From NCBI GenBank assembly GCA_025454395.1, contig JALOOM010000044.1, positions 1-42,293 on the forward strand: 42,293 nt of DNA. Direction: 5' to 3'. This DNA is from Elainella sp. Prado103 (GTDB taxonomy: Bacteria; Cyanobacteriota; Cyanobacteriia; Elainellales; Elainellaceae). Below are positions 4,731-28,459 of the stretch, piece after piece. The notes under the pieces are model-generated. The model was not told the origin of the DNA, searched no databases, and was given only the letters and a program-made list of their open reading frames with translations. Each line of letters opens with the position of its first letter. The stretch's first letter is position 1. Both the position numbers and the translations under genes were made by a program.

Positions 4731-5294
4731 ATGAAGCCAGAAGAGATTACTCAAGCGCTCACCACCCTCTTCGGGGATAGTATTCAGGTGGCAGAACCGG
4801 AGTCTTGGCAGGTCGAAGGCGAGAACCTGCGACTCTTGGTGTTGCTATCGGAAGATCAATCCTGGCTTAGAGCATTGATCACGATCGCTCCCATGCAGGA
4901 AGCTGCTCCGTTTTATCAACAACTCCTAGCAGCCAATTTTGACGAAACGCAAGAAGTTCGCTATGCCCTATTTCAAAACTTACTGTGGGGCGTGTTTCAA
5001 CATAGCCTGGAAGGGCTAAGGATCGAAGACTTTCAGACCGCAATTGTCCGGTTAGTGGAGCTGCATCAACGCGGTTTGAGCGACAGTTTTAACCAACTTG
5101 CAGAAACTCAGATTCGACAAATTATTCGAGCTGCTAAGTTGCAAGGACAATCGCTGGAAACCACGATGCAGACTCTGGAGCGGTTCTATGAGGAAGGGGT
5201 GATGGGCGATCTAAATGCTGGAGAACAGGTTCGTAGTGAATTTTTGGGGGCTTGGCGCTATCAGTTAGAGCGACTCTGGCATGAGGAGGGCTAG
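4731..5294 (+). CDS. YbjN/CesT-like conserved protein
   Basis: A 187-aa soluble, acidic protein without signal peptide or membrane segment. The first 130 residues alternate helix and strand in the pattern of type III secretion chaperone-like/YbjN folds (for example SEDQSWLRALITIAPMQEA and FQNLLWGVFQHSLEGL). A helical tail follows (about 120-187). I assign the fold from overall pattern only, and no catalytic residues are evident. It is convergent with the P450 gene; their stops are about 15 bp apart. Confidence 0.7.
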   Translation: MKPEEITQALTTLFGDSIQVAEPESWQVEGENLRLLVLLSEDQSWLRALITIAPMQEAAPFYQQLLAANFDETQEVRYALFQNLLWGVFQHSLEGLRIEDFQTAIVRLVELHQRGLSDSFNQLAETQIRQIIRAAKLQGQSLETTMQTLERFYEEGVMGDLNAGEQVRSEFLGAWRYQLERLWHEEG

Positions 5295-5308
5295 GGTATA
5301 GGAGAAAT

Positions 5309-6649
5309 CTAGGCTGCGATCGGGGCAAATTTCACCTTCAGCCCATCTCTGGGGTGGGGGGTGGGCACGGTGATCAAAGTGAGATCTTGATCAGGCAAGA
5401 GCTGCCATTCATACCCCCGCAACAAATGCACGGCAAAAATTTTCATCTCTAGCCGGGCAAACTCTTTTCCCAGGCATTCGCGAATTCCACTGCCAAACGG
5501 CACATAGCCATATTTTTGTCGATCGATACTTTGGGCAGCAATTGCCTCGGGGCTAAATCGATCGGGATCAAATCGATCGGGCTGGGGATAGAGAGAACCA
5601 TCCTGATGCGTAGAATTGATTTCATAGAGGACTGTCCAACCCTGGGGAATTTCATAGCCTTCCAACTCACAAGACTCTAGCACCGTCCGAAAGCCACCTC
5701 CTACTGGTGGAACAAACCGCATCACTTCCCGAAGCACTTGATCCAGATAGGTCATTTGCTTCAAGCTATCCAACGTGAGCGGGGCGGGGGCAAATTGGGC
5801 TTGTTCGACTTGTAATTTCTGCCAAACTTCTGGATGTTGGGGGAGACACAAACAAAAGGTTGCAAGGGCTGAGGTCAGGGTTTCGTGTCCGGCAAACAGA
5901 AGTAGTAAGATCTGGTCTTTGAGTTCGGCAATGCTGAGCTGTTGCCCATTTTCATCAGTAGCCTGGATCAGTAAGCCGAGGGTGTCTGCTCCCGGATCTC
6001 CCTGCTGTTTGCGTTGTTGGATCAACCGTTCTAATTCGGCAACAAGTCGATCGCGGCTCTGTTGGGCACGACCAAAGCGCGACCAGGGTAGGGCAAGTGG
6101 AATTGAGAATAAACCCTGGCTCCAGGTTTCAAACCAATGTCCCAGTTGGGTTTCAGCTCCATTGTCTAACCCAGCTAATAATTTACAGGCAACATCAAAT
6201 GTATACTGCCGCAACTCAGGATACCAGGCAAACGTGACTTGCTGCGACCAACGATCGAGATACCGCTGCGTGATGGTTTCCATCGTTTCGATATAACCTG
6301 CTAGGGCTCGAGGCATAAACGCTTGCGCCAGCAATTTACGGCGATTTTGATGGATCTCGCCGGTCTGGAGGGCCAAAGATAAGTCACCCAAAAGGGCTGT
6401 TGTGCTAGGTGGCCAACTTACAGCAAAGTAGCGATTTTCATTAGAGAGAATAAATTGATTGGCTGTAACCCCCTTGACAAATATAGTGGGTTTGCCCAAA
6501 AGTCGCGTTTTAAAGATAGCTCCATATTGCTGATGACGTTTGCGGGCAAAATCTGGATCGCGAAAGAAATTGAAGGTTTCGCCAATCCAAGGGAAGCCAT
6601 AATTTCCGGGTGGAAGGGATGGGCGATCGATCGAATTGAAGTTTGTCAT
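5309..6649 (-). CDS. Cytochrome P450, CYP120-like
   Basis: A 446-aa soluble P450. Seen: the N-terminal PPGNYGFPWIGETFNFF, the I-helix oxygen-binding AGHETLT, the K-helix EVMR and the heme loop FGSGIRECLGKE, with the heme-ligand cysteine near residue 392. The protein closely follows Synechocystis CYP120A1, a retinoid (retinoic acid) hydroxylase, including the LKDQILLLLFAGHETLTSAL block as I recall it. ATG 6649 is chosen because it gives the CYP120 N-terminus; a GTG at 6730 would add a hydrophobic 27-residue extension and has a poorly spaced ribosome-binding site. No ferredoxin or reductase partner is adjacent. Confidence 0.93.
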   Translation of the reverse strand: MTNFNSIDRPSLPPGNYGFPWIGETFNFFRDPDFARKRHQQYGAIFKTRLLGKPTIFVKGVTANQFILSNENRYFAVSWPPSTTALLGDLSLALQTGEIHQNRRKLLAQAFMPRALAGYIETMETITQRYLDRWSQQVTFAWYPELRQYTFDVACKLLAGLDNGAETQLGHWFETWSQGLFSIPLALPWSRFGRAQQSRDRLVAELERLIQQRKQQGDPGADTLGLLIQATDENGQQLSIAELKDQILLLLFAGHETLTSALATFCLCLPQHPEVWQKLQVEQAQFAPAPLTLDSLKQMTYLDQVLREVMRFVPPVGGGFRTVLESCELEGYEIPQGWTVLYEINSTHQDGSLYPQPDRFDPDRFSPEAIAAQSIDRQKYGYVPFGSGIRECLGKEFARLEMKIFAVHLLRGYEWQLLPDQDLTLITVPTPHPRDGLKVKFAPIAA

Positions 6650-23338: not shown

Positions 23339-23710
23339 TTAGGGTAGGAAACGATCGAGGGCTGATTTCAGTTCTTCAATTTCTGCTTCAATGTTGCCAT
23401 CTTTTGCTGCCCTCGCTACACATTCAGTTAAATGCTCGTCCAAAATGATGCGGGAGACCCGATCCAAAGCTCCTCGCACCGCCGCAATCTGTACCAGTAC
23501 ATCCGGACAGGCTCGACTCTCCTGCACCATCATTTTAATGCCGCGAATGTGCCCTTCAATCCGCGACAGACGATTCACAATGCGCCGCAGCGATTCTGTA
23601 CTATGCACATGGGCATGAACCGCTTCCCCAGCATACTCAGCCAACCCATCGGGATGAAGGTGATCCGAATGGGAATGACCGATCGATGGACGAGGTTCAG
23701 AGATTGTCAT
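23339..23710 (-). CDS. CsoR-family metal-sensing repressor, InrS-like
   Basis: A 123-aa four-helix DNA-binding repressor (DUF156). With ATG 23710 as start, the ligand positions are His36, Cys68, His93 and Cys97. The spacing (32, 25, 4) is identical to the nickel ligands His21, Cys53, His78 and Cys82 of Synechocystis InrS. The N-terminus is also histidine-rich (HSHSDHLH, HAHVH). Family core: RLSRIEGHIRGIKMMVQE and AAVRGALDRVSR. Nickel or cobalt sensing is inferred. It sits 211 bp upstream of the VTT and reductase genes on the same strand, which may be its targets. No G-tract operator was confidently located. Confidence 0.9.
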   Translation of the reverse strand: MTISEPRPSIGHSHSDHLHPDGLAEYAGEAVHAHVHSTESLRRIVNRLSRIEGHIRGIKMMVQESRACPDVLVQIAAVRGALDRVSRIILDEHLTECVARAAKDGNIEAEIEELKSALDRFLP

Positions 23711-23796
23711 GCTGACCACTTAAAAGAACGGCAATGTCCTGATTCTAGCCTAGCCTAGGCAGGAGAGCATTTTCTACCGGACGGGTTCATGCAGGT

Positions 23797-25116
23797 TCAG
23801 CTAGGTGGATTGCCAGCAGAGTCAGGAGCAGGAGCCGATGGGATAGGTTCGGCAGGAGCCGGTGGGGTAACGGGGGGTAATTCCGGGAGGACAGGCAAGC
23901 TAGGTTCTGGGGGCGCGGGTTCGGGTGTCATCGGTTGAACTGCCGCCGGGGCACTTTCCGGAGTAGGGAGAGGAGCAAGCACGGGATCGACCACAGGAGA
24001 TGGGACAGGAGCGGGCTGGGGGCTAGTCGTCACTTGAACACTCGAAGGGGTGGGTGCAGACAATTGAGGATCAGGCACGATCGGAGCACTGGGTAGGGGT
24101 TCCCAGTCTGGAGTGGCGTAATCTTCTACAGGACTGACTCGATAAACGGGTTCTTCAATCGGACTGGCATCTGGATTAAAGAACTGCGGCGTTTCTGAAA
24201 TGGGCCAGTTTTGATCAGGCGGAAACGATTGCTCGCGGCTAAATAAGGAGGGTTTTAGTCTGGAAATTCTGGCTGGGTTGGGTTGAGTCTGTGGGGCACC
24301 GGACTGATTTAAGTCCTGGGCGTTCGACCTGCTGGCACTTAACCGCAGAGACAGCCCAAACCCTGCACCGAGTAGACCGCCGGCCATAGAAATGGAGATG
24401 ATCGCGATCGGCATCCACCCTTTGGAATGCTTTGGCAATGGGCGCTCTGGGGAAAGTCCGTAGGGCTTGAGAAACTGAGGAGACAGAAGCTGCTTCACCG
24501 GAATAGTGGGAGGATGAGATGGCTGATCCGATCGAGCTGGCTTTCCCCAGTGTAGTACTGACTTGGTTGGAGCCTGAGTGACCGCTGGTTTTGCTAACTC
24601 CCCTTGCTCCGGCGAAACCAGGGCTGGGATCGGAGAAATTTCAGATGAAGGAATGCGAGTGGCAGCAGCCGACTCAACCTCTTCCGGTGATGAAGTCTGT
24701 GCTGCGAGAACTGCGGAGCTGGGTGGCGACTCTGGCAGAGTAGACAGGGGGTTCACCGTATGCGGCATTAATGGAAACCAATCAACTAGCAGCGGTGGAG
24801 ATTGACCGGGCACTCGCTCGAACACCACAAACGGCAGATTCCCTTCCTCAAAACAATCTAGAACCCGTGTGGCTTGAGAACCTTGAGCGATCGATCGAAC
24901 CGTATTGAAAAATTGTTGGCGAATCTGCTCAAAGTCTTGGCGTTCGCGCAATACTGGATTTAACGTTTGCAGTACAACATCTTGATTAAGATAGGCATGA
25001 AGCGCTTGATAAGTCGATCCAAAATCGCTTTGGTGGAGTAGCTTCTGGATAATGTACTTCTGATTTTGCAGCGTCGTTCCAGCCGTCAAACTCATATCGA
25101 ATGCTCGTAGCGCCAT
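23797..25116 (-). CDS. Membrane-anchored Ser/Thr pseudokinase fragment with Pro-rich outer domain
   Basis: A 439-aa protein from ATG 25116 with AGGTGAG 4 nt upstream. Residues 8-110 align by eye with the N-lobe of cyanobacterial Ser/Thr kinases (SLTAGTTLQNQKYIIQKLL...VVLQTLNPVLRERQDF...LPFVVFERVPGQS). The glycine loop is degraded (HQSDFGSTY), the catalytic lysine is Gln50, and the alpha-C glutamate is replaced near Val73. The protein lacks the whole C-lobe: no HRD or DFG. A Pro/Ser linker, a membrane helix (234-258) and a Pro-rich tail rich in PAP and PEP motifs follow. It cannot be an active kinase; a scaffold or sensor role is inference. Confidence 0.8.
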   Translation of the reverse strand: MALRAFDMSLTAGTTLQNQKYIIQKLLHQSDFGSTYQALHAYLNQDVVLQTLNPVLRERQDFEQIRQQFFNTVRSIAQGSQATRVLDCFEEGNLPFVVFERVPGQSPPLLVDWFPLMPHTVNPLSTLPESPPSSAVLAAQTSSPEEVESAAATRIPSSEISPIPALVSPEQGELAKPAVTQAPTKSVLHWGKPARSDQPSHPPTIPVKQLLSPQFLKPYGLSPERPLPKHSKGWMPIAIISISMAGGLLGAGFGLSLRLSASRSNAQDLNQSGAPQTQPNPARISRLKPSLFSREQSFPPDQNWPISETPQFFNPDASPIEEPVYRVSPVEDYATPDWEPLPSAPIVPDPQLSAPTPSSVQVTTSPQPAPVPSPVVDPVLAPLPTPESAPAAVQPMTPEPAPPEPSLPVLPELPPVTPPAPAEPIPSAPAPDSAGNPPS

Positions 25117-25372
25117 AATTCTCACCTAATAGTACCGCCTTTCAGGAAAAGCTGAGGTATCCACTCGCATCCCTCACCCTTCGGGTTGCCAACGGGGCAC
25201 TTCTGGGCACTCATTCCGTCCTAACACAAAAGTTGATCAGCATTAATCGGCATTGATCAGCATCGATCCTCAGCGTTGCTCACAGCAACGGCAGGCCGAT
25301 CAGTTATTTTGCTAAAGTCATTTATTGGGAAGTGCCGATTCTTCCTGAGGTATCTCTTAAGGGATTGAAGCT

Positions 25373-25912
25373 ATGTCACGTCAGAACTCTCTTCCGCTTC
25401 GTTGGTTGTCTACTGTAGCGATTGCGGGCTGTTTAACTGCGGGTTTTATCCCCTTCGCTCAGGCCCAGGGGCTGCCGGGATTCACGATCTTTAGCGGGGT
25501 GGAACGAGAAAACCAACTGAGCTGGCGGATGGATTTTGATGGCGAACCCGGTAGGCGGGATCGCTATCGTCTCAGAATTCCTGCCAAAAAAATGGAATTT
25601 GCGGTTGAGCAGTTTTCAATTACCTATCCAGATACCTATCGGGGGCAATTTGATCCAGAAGCGGTGGAAGTCAAAGTGGATGGAGATGAAGTTTCCCTGG
25701 ATGAAGTTACCTGGGATCCAGAAAATCGCATTATTGAAATTTATCCTCAGCAGCCTGTTCCGGCAGATACCCGTGTAGAAATTGTGCTGTCAGAAGTCCG
25801 CAATCCAACGCGAATTGGTACCCACTACTTCAATGCAATGGTACGATCGCCGGGAGATTTGCCACTCATGCGCTACGTTGGTACCTGGATTTTAACCATT
25901 GGGCGACGGTAA
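25373..25912 (+). CDS. DUF2808 exported protein
   Basis: A 179-aa protein with a clear signal peptide (basic SRQNSLPLRW, a hydrophobic core, cleavage after AQA near residue 31). The mature part is a beta-rich domain with the DUF2808 signs: DRYRLRIPAKKMEFAVEQF, TYPDTYRGQFDP and a C-terminal PLMRYVGTWILTIG. Function is unknown; the family is largely cyanobacterial. AAGGGA precedes ATG 25373. An imperfect hairpin (CCAAAGTG / CACTTGG) follows the stop without a T-run. Confidence 0.85.
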   Translation: MSRQNSLPLRWLSTVAIAGCLTAGFIPFAQAQGLPGFTIFSGVERENQLSWRMDFDGEPGRRDRYRLRIPAKKMEFAVEQFSITYPDTYRGQFDPEAVEVKVDGDEVSLDEVTWDPENRIIEIYPQQPVPADTRVEIVLSEVRNPTRIGTHYFNAMVRSPGDLPLMRYVGTWILTIGRR

Positions 25913-26000
25913 TTACCAAAGTGGTTAAACACTTGGATCGCAAAGCACTAGCTTGATTCCAGACAAAACCGGATCTCTAGATAGCAGTGTTCAGAACCTC

Positions 26001-26045
26001 TCCAACTTGCTATGATGATAGACTGTGGCTTTTTTTGAAGTTGGA
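26001..26045 (+). promoter_or_regulatory. Probable rpmH promoter inside an inverted repeat
   Basis: TGCTATGAT (26009-26016) is a good extended -10 element, 40 bp before the rpmH ATG; a -35 near 25989-25994 (GTTCAG) is weak. The -10 lies within the loop of a perfect 8-bp inverted repeat (TCCAACTT 26001-26008, AAGTTGGA 26038-26045). GGAG at the end of the repeat may serve as the rpmH ribosome-binding site. Confidence 0.45.
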
Positions 26046-26055
26046 GTAGGCATTT

Positions 26056-26196
26056 ATGACCAAGCGGACGCTGGAAGGAACAAGCCGTAAGCGCAGAAGA
26101 ACCTCCGGATTTCGAGCCCGGATGCGCACCAAAAATGGACAGCAAGTCATCAAAGCGCGTCGTCGTAAAGGGCGGGCCAGGCTTTCTGTATCGTAA
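26056..26196 (+). CDS. rpmH: 50S ribosomal protein L34
   Basis: A 46-aa, very basic protein of the large ribosomal subunit. The sequence starts [20 protein letters not shown] and ends with the conserved [12 protein letters not shown]. It is complete. It heads the conserved cluster rpmH-rnpA-(PH)-yidC-jag. Confidence 0.97.
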
Positions 26197-26208
26197 GGCA
26201 TCAACATC

Positions 26209-26622
26209 GTGGCGTTGCCTAAAGTGAATCGGCTCAGGCATCGACAGGAGTTCAATGCAATCTATCAGTCCGGTTTGCGACGGTCTACCTCGAATTTAAC
26301 GCTGAGAGCCTGGCATCCGGTGAAGCGATTGAAGCAGGCAAAATCCCCGCAACTCGATCCGGAAAATAACTTGGGAACGGAATCTGGTTTTCCACCCCGA
26401 ATTGGTATCTCGATTAGCCAGAAAGTCAGTAAGCGGGCGGTTGTCCGCAATCGAATTAAGCGTCAAATTCGGGCTGTCTTGCAGCAGTTGTTACCCCAAA
26501 TTGCACCCGGCTGGCAGTTGGTGATTGTCGTAAAGCCAAATGCGACTCAGTGCGGTTACGAACAATTTCTGCAAGAATTAAAGCAGCTATTGATCAGTGC
26601 CGAGGTTATCAATGGGCATTAA
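26209..26622 (+). CDS. rnpA: Ribonuclease P protein component
   Basis: A 137-aa basic protein that assists the RNase P RNA in maturing tRNA 5' ends. Seen: RLRHRQEFNAIYQSG, and the RNR signature SKRAVVRNRIKRQIRAVL. An insertion of about 20 residues (KQAKSPQLDPENNLGTES) sits before the IGISISQKV strand. The start codon is GTG 26209, 12 bp after the rpmH stop; no upstream ATG fits. Its 3' end overlaps the PH-domain gene by 11 bp. Confidence 0.96.
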   Translation: MALPKVNRLRHRQEFNAIYQSGLRRSTSNLTLRAWHPVKRLKQAKSPQLDPENNLGTESGFPPRIGISISQKVSKRAVVRNRIKRQIRAVLQQLLPQIAPGWQLVIVVKPNATQCGYEQFLQELKQLLISAEVINGH

Positions 26623-27007
26623 GGAAGAGGTTTATTACGAGGGCGCTCCCCATATCGGGGACTTGATCATTAATATCCTGTTAGGGTTCACGGTGATCTG
26701 TTTGCCACTCACGGTTGGTGCGATCGTTCGAGCTTTGTGGCTGCGATATCGCATTACCGATCGACGCATCTCGGTCATTGGTGGCTGGATGGGACGAGAT
26801 CAGGCTGATGTCGTCTATGCGGATATTACCAAAGTGGTTACAGTGCCACGCGGACTGGGAGCCTGGGGCGATATGGTGCTTTTTCTCAAGGATGGCAGCA
26901 AAATTGAAATGCGGGCTGTTCCAAAGTTTCGCGATCTGTACAATTACATCAATCAAAAGCTTTCGATCAGAGCGCAACAGGCGAGTGGATCGATCGGCAC
27001 CAATTAG
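26612..27007 (+). CDS. PH-domain (bPH2-like) membrane protein
   Basis: A 131-aa protein. Short N-terminus MGIKEEVYYEGAPH, one hydrophobic hairpin (about 14-42, LIINILLGFTVICLPLTVGA), then a small beta domain with WLRYRITDRRISVIGGW and DITKVVTVPRGLGAWGDMVL, typical of bacterial PH domains. Cyanobacteria keep this gene between rnpA and yidC, so a role in membrane insertion is possible but unproven. ATG 26612, inside the end of rnpA, is preferred over 26597. Confidence 0.85.
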   Translation: MGIKEEVYYEGAPHIGDLIINILLGFTVICLPLTVGAIVRALWLRYRITDRRISVIGGWMGRDQADVVYADITKVVTVPRGLGAWGDMVLFLKDGSKIEMRAVPKFRDLYNYINQKLSIRAQQASGSIGTN

Positions 27008-27160
27008 TTCCATCAGGTATCCCCTTCATCTCATCCGATTCCCTGCCTCGGGAAAAAGGCTCTTCTCCTGGGCAGGTGAGGGCAGATGCAACTGCCAGAG
27101 TGAGGTATGGGCAACTTGATCATTCGGTTGAAAACTCAGAGGACTAGGTAGACACAGCGC

Positions 27161-28459
27161 ATGGACTTTGGAGTCGGATTTCTTTCTAACAATGTAATGC
27201 TGCCGATCCTGGATTTCTTCTACGGGATCGTGCCCAGCTATGGTCTTGCCATCGTAGCTCTGACTTTAGTAATTCGGTTTGCGCTTTATCCTTTGAGTGC
27301 AGGCTCAATTCGGAGTATGCGCCGGATGCGAGTTGCTCAGCCGGTAATGCAGAAGCGCGTTAAAGAGGTGCAAGAGCGCTTTAAGGATGACCCTGCGAAA
27401 CAGCAAGAGGAGATGAGCAAGCTCTATAAAGAGTTTGGCAATCCACTGGCGGGCTGCTTTCCGGTGCTCCTCCAGATGCCGATCCTCTTCGCTCTCTTCG
27501 CAACCTTGAGAGGATCGCCGTTTTCCGACATCAATTACAACGTGAATTTGCAGATCCTGCCCCAGGAGCAGATCGAGCAGATTCAACCTCAAGCCTTTGT
27601 CACCAATCCACAGAATATCTACGTAGCCGATGGAGTTCACGCTCCGATTTCAGCGGTTTTGCCAGGTGGCAATCGGTTAGCAGTGGGCGAAAAAACGAAT
27701 ATTTTGTTCCAAACCTCGACTGGCAAGCCACTCAACGAATTCCTCAAAGAGTATCCGGAAACCGAGATTCAACCCCATTGGCAAATTACCAAAGGTGACG
27801 ATCTAATTCGAGTGGATGAGCAGGGCTATCTGGAAGCACTGGCTCCAGGAGAGGTCACCATCCAGGGCACTGTGCCTGGGCTGGCTGCTAACAAAGGCTT
27901 CTTGTTTATCAAGGCCTTGGGGCGAGTTGGTGCGATGGGTGAGAATGGTCAGATTAACTGGGATATTCTCGGAATGGTGCTGTTCTTCGGTGTCAGCCTT
28001 TATGTTAACCAGTTACTCTCTGGGCAGGGGCCAAGTGCGAATGCCAATCCTCAGCAGGCAGCCGTGAATCGGTTTACGCCAATTATTTTCTCTGGGATGT
28101 TTTTGTTTTTCCCGTTGCCAGCCGGGGTACTGATGTATATGGTGATTGCCAATGTGTTTCAGACCCTGCAAACCTATATTTTGTCAAGGGAACCCCTGCC
28201 GGAAAACTTGCAGAAAATTGTTGATGAGCAGGAAAAGCAAAACAGTGGGGATAGCCGAGCAGCATTACCGTTTGAGCCAGTGAAGTCTAAAAAAGAAGCT
28301 GAGGCAAAACCTGAAGCGAAAACTGAGCCTAAGTCAACTGCTAAACAGAGTAAACCCGCTAGTAAATCAGCAACGAGTAAGCCTACAACCAGTAAAGCGA
28401 CTTCTAAACCAGCAACTCCCAAAGATGCAGACCGTCCAAATACCAAGAAAAAAGGTTGA
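27161..28459 (+). CDS. yidC: Membrane protein insertase YidC/Oxa1/Alb3
   Basis: A 432-aa insertase for thylakoid and plasma-membrane proteins. The N-terminal helix [20 protein letters not shown] carries the groove arginine Arg39. The cytoplasmic hairpin (50-95, [27 protein letters not shown] in part) and the [20 protein letters not shown] helix follow. Residues about 121-265 are an extra luminal or periplasmic insertion whose end ([20 protein letters not shown]) looks like a Big2 Ig-like repeat. The last helices ([20 protein letters not shown]) and a Lys/Thr/Pro-rich tail (351-432) end the protein. Its stop shares a base with the jag start (TGATG). Confidence 0.97.

Follow-up and report, generated by a model that had tools for sequence, protein, structure and literature searches.

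The window analysed here is a stretch of 42,293 nucleotides of contig JALOOM010000044.1 from Elainella sp. Prado103. The gene under study is encoded on its reverse strand, flanked by a gene for a CsoR-type repressor and by a DUF2808 – rnpA – yidC stretch (25373–28459). From its N-terminus, the predicted protein consists of a remnant of a kinase N-lobe, a proline-rich linker, a single membrane helix, a conserved outer peptide and a proline-rich outer tail (Table 1).

Table 1. Features of the gene under study and its immediate neighbours in the window
Feature	Coordinates	Strand	Evidence
Whole coding sequence, 439 codons and stop	23797–25116	−	Open frame; orthologues
Ribosome-binding-site-like AGGTGA, 5 bases 5′ of the ATG	25122–25127	−	Read from the sequence
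Met8, alternative start, aligned with the start of most orthologues	25093–25095	−	Orthologue alignment
Kinase N-lobe remnant, residues 8–105, five strands and helix alpha-C	24802–25095	−	Profile, AlphaFold2, structure matches
Gln50, at the catalytic Lys position	24967–24969	−	Alignment of 26 family members
PPLLVDWFPLMP, which may derive from alpha-I, the last kinase helix	24763–24798	−	Score-matrix test (moderate)
Proline-rich cytoplasmic linker, weakly conserved	24421–24762	−	Alignment, dN/dS
Single membrane helix, about residues 235–258	24343–24414	−	Hydropathy; AlphaFold2 helix
GxxxGxxxR (G250, G254, R258), end of the membrane helix	24343–24369	−	Alignment A3
Outer juxtamembrane peptide PSLFSREQSFPPDQNWPISE, QxFPxxxxW motif (Q296 to W304)	24193–24252	−	Alignment, profile searches
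Proline-rich outer tail, 32 % Pro	23800–24183	−	Composition of the tail
Neighbour: CsoR-type metal-sensitive repressor, found close to the gene in 10 of 27 other family loci as well	23339–23719	−	Pfam
Neighbour: DUF2808 protein; L079 and L080 (Elainella, Pegethrix) show the same adjacency	25373–25912	+	Pfam

The intact frame and ribosome-binding site described in the initial annotation were both borne out. The true start may nevertheless lie seven codons downstream, at 25095, and a gene of 432 codons is, from the alignment, as likely as one of 439. Hydropathy identified one hydrophobic segment in the protein (residues about 235–257) which, together with the proline content of the tail, agrees with the membrane helix and outer tail of the original description. 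Database searches with the single protein revealed little: no Pfam family was found at E≤1, and NCBIfam returned weak kinase matches, all within residues 9–106. The PASTA kinase model NF033483 scored 10 bits against a cut-off of 450, and no outer PASTA repeats were detected by the Pfam search. The gene was absent from the Pkinase matches in a search of its own genome, and no kinase was found at E≤1 when the PDB was searched with the window protein alone.

The identity of the N-terminal domain as a kinase N-lobe, proposed from the sequence by the initial annotation, was confirmed at the level of the family. A profile of 26 N-lobe sequences matched the staphylococcal kinase PknB/Stk1 in the PDB (E 8e-5, positions 11–109). 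AlphaFold2, run on the same 26-sequence alignment, predicted five strands and helix alpha-C with a mean pLDDT of 88.9, and Foldseek with VIA-align matched this model to PpkA (Z 13.2), Rv3910 (12.6) and PknB (about 12). By profile and by predicted model, the window protein has the N-lobe fold of a Hanks kinase.

The same domain lacks what catalysis requires. The beta-3 Lys is replaced by Gln50 in the window protein, and across 26 aligned family copies from 18 genera this position is occupied by Gln in 24 and His in two. The Gly loop reads HQSDFG and is broken, and the C-lobe with its HRD and DFG motifs is missing, as seen both in the alignment and in the own-genome Pkinase search. These losses were all in the initial annotation, which had also reported the alpha-C Glu as lost; this holds for the window copy, in which the position is Thr, but not for the family as a whole, as Glu is kept in 6 of 26 members. 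The invariant residues of the family N-lobe are G6, L9, Q10, A31, F62, F82, E84 and V91 (alignment A4 numbering). The window protein is a pseudokinase in the sense of kinase homology with missing catalytic motifs, but not in the sense of a domain with both lobes: after the N-lobe there is only the hinge and a possible remnant of alpha-I.

Family members keep a short segment after the hinge, with LxDWLxLPPEP in several, which resembles the last helix of full kinases, RPQTVAEWLALLP. This resemblance was assessed with an alpha-I score matrix built from 27 full-length relatives, leaving out G017 (no Trp), G001, G020, G029 and G011. The site ranked first of all positions in 10 of 23 proteins, including that of the window, and in 3 of 23 without the Trp; in the window copy it was first of 431 positions, and fifth if Trp was ignored. 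The mean score without Trp was −4.0, which is below zero, compared with −14.9 for permuted columns, and was reached by 10 of 5000 permutations in which columns were permuted identically in all rows. We suggest, with moderate confidence, that the kinase was shortened by an in-frame deletion running from the hinge to alpha-I.

Homologues with the same losses, which the initial annotation proposed to look for, are common in family f1. This family holds Elainella, Pegethrix and Phormidium tenue FACHB-886, with Elainella saxicola (G001), Pegethrix bostrychoides (G002) and P. tenue FACHB-886 (G021) among its named members. As far as the loci were read, N-lobe-only orthologues are present in 30 of 36 family genomes (that of the window and 35 others), of which 25 were classified and five (G013, G018, G031, G033 and G035) were seen as loci, partly fragmentary. 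Two further family genomes (G020 and G029) have a full-length dead kinase, and G011 has the membrane module described below with no kinase. No copy was found in G003 or G004, which belong to the same genus as the window; G004 is 77 % complete and was covered by the first family search only. The locus of G034 was not fetched. About 24 of the 30 genomes show an apparently unbroken frame. Broken frames were seen in G001, G014, G018, G031 and G035, all drafts of 280 to 680 contigs, and in G026 (8 contigs) the tail of the orthologue looks out of frame. In the Elainella genome G001 (L004/L079), an undetermined base interrupts the orthologue, which goes on in another frame; the interruption is probably a draft-assembly fault. 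The window copy contains no frameshift.

Selection was assessed by Nei–Gojobori counting in seven same-genus pairs. N-lobe dN/dS in the six computable pairs was 0.085, 0.244, 0.082, 0.062, 0.263 and 0.10, with the upper bootstrap limit below 1 in every pair (highest 0.70); members of a single genus recur in three of these pairs, two of which show high dS (2.4 and 3.2). Silent sites were saturated in the seventh pair, and also between the window and Elainella (pN 0.143, pS 0.796), giving no ratio. Among the same-genus pairs with finite values, dN/dS was 0.16–0.55 in the linker, 0.24–0.49 in the tail and, in four pairs, 0–0.14 in the outer peptide. In the pair G028/G033, the N-lobe (0.26) was no lower than the linker (0.23). 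The family N-lobe is under purifying selection and no relaxation was seen. The shared losses, low dN/dS and conserved replacement of Lys by Gln support a selected, non-catalytic function, as had been put forward for the window copy. Relatives with a full active kinase, together with relaxed selection or frameshifts in this copy, had been named as evidence against such a function: relatives with an intact-looking kinase do exist, but no relaxation was seen in the family, and the window copy carries no frameshift.

Conservation extends into and beyond the membrane. In alignment A3 (25 rows, including full-length kinases of other families), an invariant GxxxGxxxR is followed by QxFPxxxxW; in five rows the Trp follows a spacer that is shorter by one. 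We refer to this helix and peptide as the module, and both elements are present in the window protein. A module search gave a match in 149 of 290 genomes, exactly one each, a number that is a lower bound, since weak modules also occur in kinases of G045 and G057. The profile was checked on the fetched loci, most of which had been chosen for holding the module, and matched 90 of 4437 frames, never two per locus; the reversed profile had no match in the same frames. A profile made from six rows outside the family found the module in 27 of 28 family loci. The frames that carry the module range from 84 to 713 codons, stop to stop. AlphaFold2 predicted the membrane helix confidently but gave the outer peptide no structure, as expected of a docking peptide.

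Outside the family, the module gene mostly lies between a tRNA-nucleotidyltransferase-type gene (DHH, CBS and PolyA_pol domains) and a DUF6825 – ABC1 – PP2C run, as identified with Pfam. At least one of these four cluster genes is present at 47 of 60 module loci outside the family, and DUF6825 and ABC1 together at 46; among kinase-less loci the proportion with at least one is 15 of 17. The 13 outside loci without any cluster gene come from f26 (six), f3 (two), f4, f9, f10, f22 and f30. The orthology of the gene outside the family is fixed mostly by this synteny. DUF6825 was also found in 14 of 16 genomes picked for having no module match (13 listed as module-free and three f32 genomes absent from the matches), although in two of the 14, G045 and G057, the DUF6825 locus holds a kinase with a weak module. 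The presence of DUF6825 in module-free genomes indicates that module and cluster are separable.

Separation is the rule within family f1. The tRNA-nucleotidyltransferase neighbour is kept in 10 of 27 other family loci and separated in 17, and neither DUF6825 nor ABC1 lies near the gene in any fetched family locus, the window included; the window gene does not occupy the cluster position. ABC1 is found elsewhere in the genome, beside DUF6825 and PP2C, in 15 family genomes searched, and the genome of the window likewise has the trio away from the window locus. The closest structures to the PP2C protein next to the module in L061 were 5iti and 2j82 (the two best matches), 2xzv and 2y09, which we take to be PphA structures. 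Equating the ABC1 neighbour with SpkI rests on gene arrangement. With these identifications, the module gene looks like an ancestral member of the spkI–pphA cluster.

The state of the kinase domain differs widely among carriers of the module. We classified 89 genomes, picked to span families and frame lengths rather than at random: 19 keep the Lys, HRD Asp and DFG Asp; 27 have a full-length degenerate kinase; 25, all in family f1, have the N-lobe only; and 18 have no kinase domain. In five of the 19 intact kinases (G135, G192, G056, G107 and G177), the Phe or Gly of DFG is changed. G042 was set as intact by hand, though its frame lacks the start of the N-lobe, and G011 was set as kinase-less by hand; the other kinase-less assignments were made on a frame length under 310 and checked afterwards by kinase profile. 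The state counts leave out G044, in which the gene is cut by the contig end, and the locus counts leave out the duplicates L210, L213 and L221. The intact-kinase profile found no match in the 949 frames of the 18 kinase-less loci except the ABC1 neighbour, matched weakly in five of them (at most 16.5 bits); the same profile matched in all 27 degenerate and all 24 N-lobe-only loci examined with it. No Pfam match was obtained for the 13 of 18 kinase-less proteins that were run, and the kinase-less module members tested had no match in either Pfam or NCBIfam.

A tree of ABC1 proteins from 76 genomes (quick search, midpoint root) requires six changes of the kinase-less label, three of them forced by strongly supported branches, and seven changes in the presence or absence of the C-lobe. 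The N-lobe-only label requires three changes on the ABC1 tree and two on a tree of N-lobes, one being forced on each, and a single origin of the N-lobe-only form is likely from these trees. In the N-lobe tree, the N-lobe-only copies group with the dead kinases of f3, f4, f19 and genus g17 (89 %), from which it follows that catalysis was probably lost before the C-lobe; this tree comes from a quick search of few columns and places a long-branched dead f6 kinase among the N-lobe-only copies. It leaves out f13, G001, G042 and G029, as well as G016, L110, L111 and L115, in which the N-lobe match was too short. Taken with the states of the domain, the trees suggest repeated decay or loss of the kinase domain, with the membrane core staying more constant.

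The N-lobe tree also contains one paralogue clade within the module kinases. L203–L208 (f32), L029, L030 and L102, the last from the genome of the window, carry a separate, related intact kinase. This paralogue has a hydrophobic segment but no outer motif, and the f32 loci have no cluster nearby. A different origin, with the N-lobe taken over from another kinase in the host genome, was considered and rejected, as the tree puts the copies with the module kinases. In a search with the N-lobe profile, module kinases scored up to 118 bits, L102 scored 92 and the other kinases of the genome at most 26.

The outer peptide has its own pattern of retention. Of the 19 intact-kinase genomes, 9 have the Trp motif, compared with 66 of the 70 others under a loose pattern and 62 of 70 under a strict one, a contrast that rests on about three clades, making a Fisher p value untrustworthy, and in which the non-intact genomes were mostly found via the motif itself. 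Of the ten intact-kinase genomes without the motif, seven are from f26 and one each from f28 and f33, and in the tenth (f41) a stop cuts the frame. The peptide is not universally kept: the motif is missing in f26, f28 and f33 despite an intact kinase. This distribution suggests that kinase and outer peptide are two separable functions of which lineages may keep one, and a gene that had lost both would escape the search.

Several loci illustrate the extremes. In L191 (G291, f41; 4939–6258, reverse strand), an intact-looking kinase has an in-frame stop just before the expected Trp, which could be real or an assembly error. L163–L165 (G277, G095 and G221; f30) have frames of 84–99 codons that encode little beyond the helix and outer peptide; two of the three still lie in front of DUF6825 – ABC1 – PP2C, and the three proteins had no match in Pfam or NCBIfam. 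The f26 loci L063, L066–L068, L211 and L220 encode module kinases with intact catalysis and no Trp motif, and most of them adjoin a conserved gene, F14 (no Pfam match), rather than the DUF6825 cluster.

We consider it probable that the window gene encodes, rather than an enzyme, a membrane adaptor that ancestrally belonged to the SpkI–PphA cluster, and whose relic N-lobe has been kept as a non-catalytic cytoplasmic binding module. The ancestor would have been a membrane-anchored Ser/Thr kinase encoded in the order tRNA-nucleotidyltransferase-type gene – kinase – DUF6825 – ABC1 (SpkI-type) – PP2C (PphA-type). In the ancestry of family f1 the catalytic residues were most likely lost first, given that f3, f4 and genus g17 keep a full-length dead kinase, and the C-lobe would have been removed next. 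The parts kept would be a foldable N-lobe with its Gln, the GxxxGxxxR membrane helix and the outer QxFPxxxxW peptide, with helix and peptide as the putative working core. The small-residue face of the helix may pack with itself or with a partner membrane protein, and the outer peptide may dock on a periplasmic (envelope) or lumenal protein. The N-lobe would offer a cytoplasmic docking surface that does not bind ATP and that would link this anchor to a signalling partner such as an ABC1 kinase, a Hanks kinase or PphA. The topology, with the N-terminus inside, is presumed from kinase parentage, and the partners and direction of signalling are putative.

A broader proposal, which we put forward tentatively and which may well prove wrong, is that a single-copy family of cyanobacterial membrane adaptors is the constant component of the SpkI–PphA cluster. 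The kinase domain would then be a dispensable attachment that several times was killed, cut back to an N-lobe or removed, and the role of the protein would never have been mainly phosphorylation.

The initial annotation had favoured a regulatory partner of a true kinase, in which the N-lobe remnant would pair back to back with the corresponding lobe of an active Ser/Thr kinase and either activate or block that kinase. In favour of this role are the confident fold of the N-lobe, its purifying selection and the conserved Gln at the Lys position. The genome of the window has 19 Pkinase family matches over the cut-off, and the pseudokinase domain of Rv3910/MviN, among the best structural matches, dimerizes back to back in solution (PMC12599244, in the text available). 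We regard such partnering as possible but secondary, and as unlikely to be the principal role: 18 of the 89 classified genomes keep the orthologue with no N-lobe at all, so N-lobe partnering cannot explain in general why the gene is kept. In those genomes the membrane helix and the outer QxFPxxxxW peptide stay more constant.

Still less probable is a history in which the helix–peptide protein was ancestral and kinase domains were added independently in some lineages. In favour of this history, the root of the ABC1 tree was placed by midpoint only, and the kinase-less f9 and f12 adjoin it. Against it, the dead kinases and N-lobe relics form a graded set of remnants, and in f1, f13 and f30/f41 kinase-less genomes are nested next to those that bear a kinase; even under such gains, the reading of the window gene as a product of loss would be unchanged. 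That the gene is a decaying kinase pseudogene heading for loss is very improbable: catalytic residues and C-lobe are gone, two genomes of the same genus yielded no copy and the copy seems interrupted or out of frame in six of 30 family genomes, but the remaining frames, the dN/dS values well below 1 and the Gln or His at the Lys position in all 26 copies from 18 genera disfavour it. A membrane adaptor remains the reading that we prefer.

The PphA-type neighbour also raised the idea that an active module kinase might be the missing PII kinase. This is unlikely in general, because the genome of L170, presumably Synechococcus elongatus PCC 6301, carries the kinase-less form of the gene, and PII phosphorylation is known in S. 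elongatus. The PII kinase is described as not identified in a review (PMC11863333), and SpkB has been proposed as a candidate (PMC10651672), according to the available text of each. The Synechocystis gene for SpkI (sll1770, ABC1) lies upstream of pphA, which encodes the PII phosphatase (PMC11863333). Both of these gene kinds stand beside the orthologue in most loci outside the family; the available text on the Synechocystis SpkI–PphA cluster does not name a Hanks kinase or a small membrane protein as a member. No literature was found on DUF6825 or on sll1768.

Compared with known systems, the window protein shares with PknB-like Hanks kinases (PF00069) the N-lobe fold, an N-terminal cytoplasmic domain, one membrane helix and an outer tail, but it is without the Lys, Gly loop, C-lobe, HRD, DFG and PASTA repeats. 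Like the ActPs3 pseudokinases (Rv3910/MviN) it is a membrane-linked, non-catalytic kinase domain with a close N-lobe match; however, the solved domain of Rv3910 is about 249 residues long and aligns in part, whereas the window gene encodes the N-lobe only. The CP1 pseudokinases of cyanobacteria and proteobacteria are, in the available text of PMC12599244, likewise cyanobacterial and partly catalytically dead. They are described there as being without transmembrane regions and linked to COG3899; the window protein, in contrast, has one membrane helix and no Pfam domain. Pseudokinases, including membrane-linked ones, are already known. Among the literature matches listed, no title or abstract opening names an N-lobe-only cyanobacterial pseudokinase, and the available text of PMC12599244 has no occurrence of ‘truncat-’ or ‘C-lobe’ and yielded no N-lobe-only family.

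The orthologues of this one gene form a natural series that begins with a membrane kinase that seems active, passes through a dead kinase and an N-lobe alone, and ends with proteins that have no kinase domain. Through it, catalysis and anchoring can be told apart as functions of bacterial membrane kinases, and the 84–99-codon open frames of some species provide a small testable part. The SpkI/PphA cluster, in which a PII kinase has been looked for, gains an unstudied member. Genes of this kind would be overlooked by kinase surveys that discard incomplete domains; a 2007 survey of cyanobacterial kinases excluded 17 proteins without all or part of the catalytic domain (PMC2176072, available text). 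Finally, the C-termini of many family proteins consist of a hydrophobic residue, one more residue and Gln (VISQ, VIDQ and IFRQ are examples), unlike the window protein, which ends in PPS.
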